Source of the DNA: Geothrix terrae
GTDB taxonomy: Bacteria > Acidobacteriota > Holophagae > Holophagales > Holophagaceae
DNA length: 64,000 nucleotides
Reading direction: 5' to 3'
Assembly (NCBI RefSeq): GCF_022808775.1
Contig: NZ_JAKZLA010000006.1
Location: 62,001 to 126,000 of the forward strand
The notes below the pieces were generated by a model. That model was not told the origin of the DNA. It saw only the letters and a program-made list of their open reading frames with translations, and ran no database searches. Made by a program: the position numbers and the translations under genes. Positions 7,473 through 9,856 of this stretch are shown here, one piece after another (positions within the stretch are counted from its first letter, which is position 1; every line of letters begins with the position of its first letter).

Positions 7473-7584
7473 GAGGGGATCCCCTGGAAACGGAAGTCGG
7501 GCGGAGTGGAGCCAGGGTACCCGATTGGTCCGATCCCATCCGGCCCATCTGACAGGCGCCCCACTCGCGGTATGATGAATATCT

Positions 7585-7615: not shown

Positions 7616-9337
7616 ATGAAAGTCATCGTCGCCAAGACCGCAGGGTTCTGCTGGGGAGTGAAGCGCGCCATGGACGCGGTGCTGGAGGCCTCCGTGCGCA
7701 ACGACGGCCGCAGTGTGCAGACCCTGGGCCCGCTCATCCACAATCCCCAGGCCCTGGAGCTCATCGGCCGGCGCGGCGTGGGGGTGGCCGAAGCGCCGGA
7801 GAAGGTGCAGAACGGCACGGTGGTGATCCGGGCCCACGGCATTCCCATCCAGGATCTGCGTGGCCTGAAGGAGCGGCAGAAGAAGGGCGAGCTCAAGATC
7901 GTGAACGCCACCTGTCCCGAAGTGGCCAAGGTCCACCACAAGATCAAGAAGTGGAGCCCCAAGGGCTACTTCACGGTGATCCTGGGCAGCCACGGCCATG
8001 CGGAGAGCGTGGCCCACCGCAGCTTCGCGGAGAACGGTTCGGTGATCGTCTCGAACATGGCGGAGGCGGAAGCCCTCACGGACGAACAGCTGAAGAAGGT
8101 CCTGGTGGTGGCCCAGACCACCTTCACGGTGAAGGACTATCACGCCATCACGGACTACCTCCGCGCCCGCGCGGTGGACGCGGTCTTCGAGAACACCATC
8201 TGCGAAGACACCTGGATGCGCCAGGACGAGGCCCGGGAACTGGCCCGCACCGTGGATACCGTCATCGTCGTGGGCGGCAAGACCTCCAGCAACACCAAGC
8301 ACCTGGCCGAGCTGGCCCACCACTACGGCAAGCCCGTGCAGTACGTGGAGACGGCCATGGAGCTGGATCTGGGCGCCTTCACAGGCCGCGAGACCGTGGG
8401 CGTGCTGGCGGGCGCATCCACCCCCACCTGGCTGGTGGACGAGGTGGTGGATGTGCTGGAGCAGCTGGGGGACGGCCCGAGCCGCTGGCGCAGCTTCCTC
8501 CAGGCGACCTTCGGCAGTTCCTCGCTGATGGCGGTGGGCGCGGCGCTCATGACCCTCGGTGTCCACAGGTGGCTGGACCTGCGCATGGGCTGGCGCTACC
8601 CGCTCCTGACGGGAACCTACGTGTTGGCCATGTACCTGCTGACGCCGTTCCTGGACCCCCTGGGTCTGGGCGTCAAGGGGCCCGCGCGGGCCCGGTTCCT
8701 GGAGCGCAACCGCAGGGTCCTCGTGGCCCTGGGGGTGGTGGCGCTGCTTCTTACCCTGGGGCTCGCGGCGAGCCTGGGGCCGAAGGCCCTGGCCGTGGCG
8801 GCGGCCGCGTCTCTGGTGGGCGCGGGCTACAAGCGGCGCTTCCAAGTCGGTGGGTGGGTCCTCAGCCTCAGGAAGGTCCCCGGCTCCAAGGATGTGGTGG
8901 TGGCCCTGGCCCTGGCCACGGTGGCCGTCATCATGCCGGTCTGGCAGGAGGGCCGGGCCTGGGACCTCCGCGCCTTCGCGGCCATGTTCCTGGTGGGGGT
9001 GCTCACCTTCGTCCGGACGGTCATCTACGAAATCCGGGACATGCAGAACGATCAGATCGTGGGGAAGGAGACCTTGCCCATCTTCATGGGCAAGTCCGCC
9101 ACCAAGGCTGTGCTGGTGGGCCTCCTCGGCACGCTGCTGGCAGGCACCCTCTGGCTCACCTTCGAGAACCGCCAGCATGGGCATCCCCTGGCCGTGGCCC
9201 TGGTGCTGGTGGCCTGCGCGGCCTACCCGGTGCTCTACCTGTGGCTCTACCACGAGCGCTTCACGGCGGGGAAGCACCGCTTCGAGCTCAGCGTGGACCT
9301 GAGCTTCTGGATGGTGGGGCTGCTGGCCATCGTGTAG
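7616..9337 (+). CDS. ispH: IspH (HMBPP reductase) fused to a UbiA-type prenyltransferase domain
   Basis: 573 residues in one frame. Residues 1-285 are IspH, the last step of the MEP isoprenoid pathway (HMBPP to IPP and DMAPP). The three [4Fe-4S] cysteines are Cys12 (AGFCWG), Cys100 (NATCPEVAKVH) and Cys196 (NTICEDTWMRQ). Active-site His128/Glu130 (GHAE), the Thr pair in AQTTF and SSNT (224-227) are intact. Residues about 295-573 are a hydrophobic UbiA-like domain with some eight helices. The second aspartate motif is present (Asp475 and Asp479 in IRDMQND, followed by GKETLPIFMGK). The first Asp-rich motif expected near 340-365 is degenerate (FLDPLGLGVKGPARARF). UbiA proteins prenylate quinone or lipid precursors, so the fusion may join prenyl-unit supply to prenyl transfer; this is inference. 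Confidence 0.88.
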   Translation: MKVIVAKTAGFCWGVKRAMDAVLEASVRNDGRSVQTLGPLIHNPQALELIGRRGVGVAEAPEKVQNGTVVIRAHGIPIQDLRGLKERQKKGELKIVNATCPEVAKVHHKIKKWSPKGYFTVILGSHGHAESVAHRSFAENGSVIVSNMAEAEALTDEQLKKVLVVAQTTFTVKDYHAITDYLRARAVDAVFENTICEDTWMRQDEARELARTVDTVIVVGGKTSSNTKHLAELAHHYGKPVQYVETAMELDLGAFTGRETVGVLAGASTPTWLVDEVVDVLEQLGDGPSRWRSFLQATFGSSSLMAVGAALMTLGVHRWLDLRMGWRYPLLTGTYVLAMYLLTPFLDPLGLGVKGPARARFLERNRRVLVALGVVALLLTLGLAASLGPKALAVAAAASLVGAGYKRRFQVGGWVLSLRKVPGSKDVVVALALATVAVIMPVWQEGRAWDLRAFAAMFLVGVLTFVRTVIYEIRDMQNDQIVGKETLPIFMGKSATKAVLVGLLGTLLAGTLWLTFENRQHGHPLAVALVLVACAAYPVLYLWLYHERFTAGKHRFELSVDLSFWMVGLLAIV

Positions 9338-9395: not shown

Positions 9396-9683
9396 ATGCG
9401 CATGAAGTCTCTCGCCGTCCTGTCGGCCACGGCCATTCTCGGCGCCGCCCTCGGCTGGGCCGCCGCGGCCGCCAGCTACCAGAAGACCGGCACCGTGAAG
9501 GAAGTGGCCCCAGACAGCTTCACCCTCGACCTCGGCAAGGAAGCCTGGCGCTTCTACACCGACGGTGGCACCGCCGGCAAGGAGGCCCTCAAGGTCGGCG
9601 ACAAGGTGACCGTCACCTACAAGCAGGTGGCCACGAAGATCGAGGCGAAGGGCGCCGCCAAGGCTCCTGCGAAGAAGAAGTAG
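9396..9683 (+). CDS. Small secreted protein with Lys/Ala-rich tail, function unknown
   Basis: 95 residues. MKSLAVLSATAILGAALGWA is a clear signal peptide. The mature part (about 70 residues) begins YQKTGTVKEVAPDSFTLDL and has the alternating pattern of a small beta-barrel (OB/SH3-like), with KVGDKVTVTYK near its end. The tail is KIEAKGAAKAPAKKK, a low-complexity basic stretch. The gene starts behind AAGGAGAGCCCC. The DNA encoding the tail is repeated downstream of the stop codon. The fold resembles small periplasmic proteins described only as hypothetical; I cannot assign a function. Confidence 0.65.
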   Translation: MRMKSLAVLSATAILGAALGWAAAAASYQKTGTVKEVAPDSFTLDLGKEAWRFYTDGGTAGKEALKVGDKVTVTYKQVATKIEAKGAAKAPAKKK

Positions 9684-9856
9684 TCGGTTCTTCGCACTGC
9701 CCACCTTCGAGGTCTCGCGTATGGCCGCAAGGCCATGCCGAGAAGATCGAGGCGAAGGCTGCGGCCAAGGCCCCCGCGAAGAAGAAGTAGTTCACGATGA
9801 GGAGTGTTGCCTCGGCGGTCTCGCGTATGGCCGCAGGTCATACCGAGAAGAAGTAG
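9635..9856 (+). repeat. Tandem 106-107 bp duplication of the preceding gene's 3' end
   Basis: The 48-base 3' coding end plus stop at 9635-9683 recurs at 9742-9790, still reading KIEAKAAAKAPAKKK-stop. A GAAGAAGTAG remnant recurs at 9847-9856. The spacer block GGTCTCGCGTATGGCCGCA occurs at 9711 and again at 9817. This gives two full periods of 106-107 bp and a truncated third. Downstream copies have no start codon or signal peptide, so they are not genes as they stand. Confidence 0.75.

Follow-up and report, generated by a model that had tools for sequence, protein, structure and literature searches.

An IspH-UbiA fusion protein as the sole IspH of a Geothrix genome, with a substrate-binding residue lost from its membrane half

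The window analysed here, a stretch of 64,000 nucleotides from Geothrix terrae, carried at 7616-9337 on the + strand a frame that translated without interruption into 573 residues followed by a stop, which bore out the claim of an earlier, sequence-only reading of this DNA. The frame consisted of an N-terminal IspH domain and a C-terminal UbiA-type membrane domain, and the features of the locus are listed below.

7549..7576, + strand: sigma-70-like promoter match CTGACA-16-TATGAT upstream of the fusion; weak evidence only (1 found, 0.2 expected in shuffles)
7616..8464, + strand: IspH (LytB, HMBPP reductase) domain, residues 1-283, with Fe-S ligands Cys12, Cys100 and Cys196 (Pfam LYTB, PDB 3dnf, predicted fold)
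8465..8503, + strand: short linker between the domains, about residues 284-296, placed between the end of the IspH match and residue 297, where the structural match to UbiA begins; pLDDT is lower at about 281-300
8504..9334, + strand: UbiA-fold polytopic membrane domain, residues 297-573, about nine transmembrane helices (Pfam UbiA, AlphaFold model, 4od5 match)
8642..8668, + strand: degenerate first aspartate motif T343-PFL-D347-PLG-L351 (canonical NxxxDxxxD), from alignment with relatives
8828..8830, + strand: Tyr405, counterpart of a near-universal UbiA tyrosine (AfUbiA Y139), from HMMER alignment to 4tq3
9038..9052, + strand: second aspartate motif D475-MQN-D479, aligned to AfUbiA D198 and D202
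9335..9337, + strand: stop codon, from frame translation

The profile search of the genome (3.43 Mb, 97.7% complete) detected the fusion frame as the sole LYTB match, and IspG (GcpE), responsible for the step of the MEP pathway preceding IspH, was also encoded once. The genome harbored four UbiA proteins besides the fusion (L002-L005). L002 was MqnP-like and scored above the TIGR01475 cut-off, L003 was CyoE-like, and L004 and L005 were named by no curated NCBIfam cut-off. In a plasmid search, no place reached 80% query coverage. Upstream of the fusion on the opposite strand was a 920-residue frame resembling phosphoenolpyruvate carboxylase by eye, and downstream, at 9396-9683, was a frame for a small secreted-looking protein. 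The final approximately 48 bases of the latter (KIEAKGAAKAPAKKK) had a near-copy at 9744-9790, where the tail stood alone and the gene was absent.

IspH, normally a soluble protein, is essential and serves as a drug target. The IspH half of the fusion matched Pfam LYTB over residues 3-281 with 266 bits (cut-off 24.5) and TIGR00216 with 252 bits (cut-off 187.85). The closest solved IspH by sequence was PDB 3dnf (E 1.6e-50), and the predicted fold of this half matched that of E. coli IspH with a Z score of about 30. The three Fe-S cysteines C12, C100 and C196, which had been cited as the mark of an intact IspH, were all found at those positions together with the active-site residues H42, H74, H128, E130, T168/T169, S224, N226 and S268. 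Across 80 fusions, the key residues of IspH were invariant save for S225 and one T168S. The N-terminal half would be an ordinary 4Fe-4S HMBPP reductase, its activity being suggested by the sole-copy status of the gene.

The C-terminal half was assigned to UbiA by Pfam (PF01040) over residues 367-551, with 54.4 bits against a cut-off of 34.2, the match covering only profile positions 67-240. An AlphaFold2 model of the fusion, built on a 27-row alignment of fusions, gave a mean pLDDT of 83.7 and a pTM of 0.78, and placed helices at residues 303-319, 327-346, 366-387, 389-406, 424-444, 451-477, 493-517, 524-544 and 553-572. Structure comparison of this half with 4od5 resulted in a Z score of 18.3 (254 residues, rmsd 3.3), followed by 4tq4 (Z 17.5) and 4tq3 (Z 16.9), with polyprenyl synthases lower at about 15. 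The profile match, the predicted fold and the structure comparison thus agreed on a UbiA-like polytopic domain as proposed earlier, and the outcome named in advance as fatal to the proposal, a predicted C-terminal structure unlike UbiA, did not occur.

The second aspartate motif of UbiA (DxxxD), which the sequence-only reading had pointed out at Asp475 and Asp479, was present exactly there. The first motif, whose non-canonical form had escaped mention, did not conform to NxxxDxxxD, as the three positions were occupied by T343, D347 and L351 and the middle Asp alone was kept. The register of the first motif was taken from the alignment of fused relatives and L126, which has the canonical NRLTDFAAD in the same columns. 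When the fused UbiA domains were compared by hhalign with the four ordinary UbiA proteins of the genome, the match stopped short of motif 1 (58%). Tyrosine was found at the position of Tyr405 in 78 of the 80 fusions, and D475 and D479 were likewise strongly conserved. For AfUbiA K146 the counterpart could be either R419 or K425, and for R22 it was uncertain; neither residue was counted. AfUbiA coordinates two Mg ions through motif 1 (N68 and D72) and motif 2 (D198 and D202); the mutations N68A and D72A abolished the binding of GPP, and D198A and D202A weakened it (PMC4106721). The equivalent mutations in the Mg ligands of E. coli MenA resulted in inactive or nearly inactive enzymes (PMC4106721). 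T343 of the Geothrix fusion might still take part in the binding of Mg.

The spread of the fusion within Acidobacteriota, which had been proposed as a check, was then evident from the genomes searched. The full fused frame was present in nearly all genomes of the same genus, and all 18 genomes of the same family (Holophagaceae) in the LYTB search carried the fusion in open frames of 576-620, with one IspH each. Beyond this family, the fusion was detected in one more family of the class (f2), in the families f9 and f20, and in two more genomes of Acidobacteriota, as well as in Nitrospinota and several genomes found through their relatedness to a Nitrospinota genome. The IspH of the family f3, which belongs to the same class, was unfused. 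A tree was constructed from the IspH domain only, with 48 fused rows from Acidobacteriota, Nitrospinota and other genomes and 38 unfused rows. A single branch, with 100/99 support and found in 200/200 bootstrap trees, had all 48 fused rows on the same side; the bootstrap was not fully settled. This topology is consistent with one fusion event and no later separation in the sample, provided that the root lies on the unfused side.

Of the 48 representative fusions, 29 lacked one or more of the four Mg ligands. The other 19, including nearly all Nitrospinota rows and two Holophagaceae rows, kept all four, and so the ancestor of the fused domain probably worked, or nearly worked, as a prenyltransferase. 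The residue was changed in 18 fusions at the Asn position, 13 at the position of D347, nine at D475 and two at D479, and the third Asp position of motif 1 (Leu351 in the Geothrix fusion) was occupied by a residue other than Asp in 46/48. Parsimony on a quick tree counted seven changes at the N343 position, six at D347, five at D475 and one at D479, and those forced by well-supported branches alone were three, three, two and one, respectively. Within the genus, the dN/dS values against the window copy were 0.10-0.31 in the UbiA half and 0.06-0.19 in the IspH half. Purifying selection acts on the UbiA half, and the domain is therefore kept for something.

Individual fusions departed from the Geothrix form in other ways. 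The relative L170 (G575:C13:103075-105329), a fusion of 503 residues, has an open frame and falls on the fused branch in the IspH tree, but its UbiA-like part was shortened, with no residue at the positions of motif 1 and Tyr405 and with His in place of the first Asp of motif 2. In L115 and L116 of the family f20 (G085 and G073), motif 2 was destroyed (DIWIIQSNG and DIWVIQSNG) and the NxxxD of motif 1 was kept, the reverse of the pattern in Holophagaceae.

The reading that we prefer, held with about even confidence, is that the protein is a membrane-tethered IspH, in which the UbiA domain serves as an anchor, perhaps with prenyl diphosphate binding retained, and in which prenyl transfer is weak, changed or absent. 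The N-terminal IspH would supply the whole cell with IPP and DMAPP, and the nine-helix domain of UbiA fold would hold it at the cytoplasmic face of the membrane, near the enzymes using prenyl diphosphates. In the Geothrix lineage, D347, Y405, D475 and D479 of the diphosphate site are retained and the Asn ligand of motif 1 is lost. The membrane location and the reduced or absent transferase activity are inferred. The loss of the Asn makes the role as an anchor most likely and prenyl transfer doubtful, as the corresponding change eliminated the binding of GPP by AfUbiA and the activity of E. coli MenA (PMC4106721). The conservation of Tyr405, D475 and D479 counts against the anchor, as it fits retained catalysis. 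The presence of the separate MqnP-like UbiA indicates that quinone prenylation need not depend on the fused domain, and a quinone prenyltransferase by default, considered as a candidate for the fused domain, was judged unlikely with L002 above the TIGR01475 cut-off.

The alternative of a bifunctional enzyme, in which the UbiA half actively transfers prenyl groups to some acceptor and is fed with prenyl diphosphates derived from IPP and DMAPP, was the view of the sequence-only reading, and Rao et al. argued likewise from the two DXXXD motifs in the proteins of sulfate reducers (PMC4746011). The intact fold and second motif, the purifying selection on the UbiA half and the retention of all Mg ligands in 19/48 fusions are in favor of this alternative. 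We regard it as possible but doubtful for the Geothrix protein, in which the Asn ligand of motif 1 is missing. Most UbiA enzymes use longer chains supplied by a separate synthase, whereas IspH makes C5 units, and a direct hand-over is not obvious. Inspection by eye of the neighboring-ORF lists of the Nitrospinota and Acidobacteriota loci revealed no acceptor-pathway gene beside the fusion. Of the earlier proposal of a membrane tether next to a prenyl-acceptor reaction, the UbiA-like membrane fold was supported, but the reaction became questionable with the loss of the Asn and no adjacent acceptor gene seen in those lists. As the 19 fusions have all of the Mg ligands, the bifunctional reading may hold in other lineages, Nitrospinota above all, and in the ancestor.

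A further proposal, which we advance tentatively and consider rather unlikely, is that a single fusion was followed by repeated loss of the Mg-diphosphate ligands in separate lineages with selection on the domain maintained, leaving a non-catalytic membrane module that would anchor IspH and possibly regulate it by sensing prenyl lipids. If true, this would be a bacterial counterpart, in the MEP pathway, of the control of HMG-CoA reductase by UBIAD1. Feedback sensing in its specific form, where the degenerate UbiA domain would bind a long-chain prenyl diphosphate or prenylated lipid and adjust the activity or stability of IspH in the manner of UBIAD1 and HMG-CoA reductase, seems improbable. The catalytic ligands have been lost repeatedly with the domain retained, and the HMGCR-UBIAD1 complex (8djk) was among the Foldseek matches; UBIAD1, a UbiA protein too, is reported to use GGPP and to control the degradation of HMGCR. 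The idea is nevertheless built on analogy, and the lost residue is one of those required for GPP binding by AfUbiA, which argues against simple binding of the donor (PMC4106721). An artefact, either a sequencing or assembly error that merged two frames or one mRNA giving two proteins, has a negligible probability, and nothing was found in its favor. The uninterrupted frame recurs across several phyla in dozens of genomes that are independent of one another, with full length and 72-97% identity in those of the same genus, and in both halves synonymous changes are far more numerous than non-synonymous ones, giving low dN/dS; an assembly error is thereby rejected.

The combination of IspH and UbiA in one protein, for which the sequence-only reading named no precedent, was confirmed by the profiles, but the arrangement is not a novel architecture. 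Rao et al. described 47 IspH-UbiA fusion sequences in 2015, mainly from Desulfobacterales and all stated to come from sulfate-reducing anaerobes, proposed membrane tethering with a local supply of IPP and DMAPP, and could not express the full-length protein (PMC4746011). Our literature search found no later study of the IspH-UbiA fusion, only a citation of that paper. The two sets have in common the order of IspH followed by a C-terminal UbiA-like domain and the idea of membrane tethering, and this shared architecture suggests that the present fusions are related to the 47 published ones. They differ in that the present hosts are Acidobacteriota (Holophagaceae and others) and Nitrospinota, those of the published set being described as sulfate reducers, and in that the first motif of the Geothrix fusion is degenerate whereas two DXXXD motifs were reported previously. 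What is new is the hosts, the one-origin pattern in the sampled fusions and the lost substrate-binding residue in the membrane half, the type of fusion itself having been published in 2015.

Other known systems share a part of these features. The IspH-RPS1 fusions (PMC4746011; NCBIfam NF000907) likewise carry a second part C-terminal to IspH in the same protein, but this partner consists of ribosomal S1 repeats instead of UbiA. The Geothrix fusion scored 268 against the NF000907 cut-off of 624 with positions 1-278 alone matching, which excluded this type, and no S1 family was present among its Pfam matches. The archaeal AfUbiA and ApUbiA (4tq3 and 4od5) share the fold (Z 16.9 and 18.3) and the equivalents of Tyr139, D198 and D202, but are stand-alone proteins of 10-12% identity, and AfUbiA retains N68 and D72 of motif 1. 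UBIAD1 and HMG-CoA reductase similarly pair a membrane protein of UbiA fold with a reductase from an isoprenoid pathway, although they are separate eukaryotic proteins of the mevalonate pathway, and the regulatory coupling, experimentally shown there, is a guess here. A lineage-wide, fused and sole-copy IspH with an apparent single fusion offers a natural test of membrane-organised early isoprenoid synthesis. The degenerate UbiA half makes testable two ideas left by the 2015 paper, namely supply to a transferase and anchoring or feedback by a former transferase.

The searches also gave matches outside the set of fusions. The IspH matches in G079:C63, G115:C158, G609:C5, G599:C1 and G567:C3 were located in open frames of 674-922 residues with no co-located match in the fused-UbiA searches, and may be other IspH fusions or merely long frames. 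Five stand-alone UbiA-like proteins (L102, L105, L119, L131 and L132), two of which come from Bacteroidetes and Ferruginibacter records, matched the fused-domain profile with motif 2 kept and the canonical motif 1 missing.
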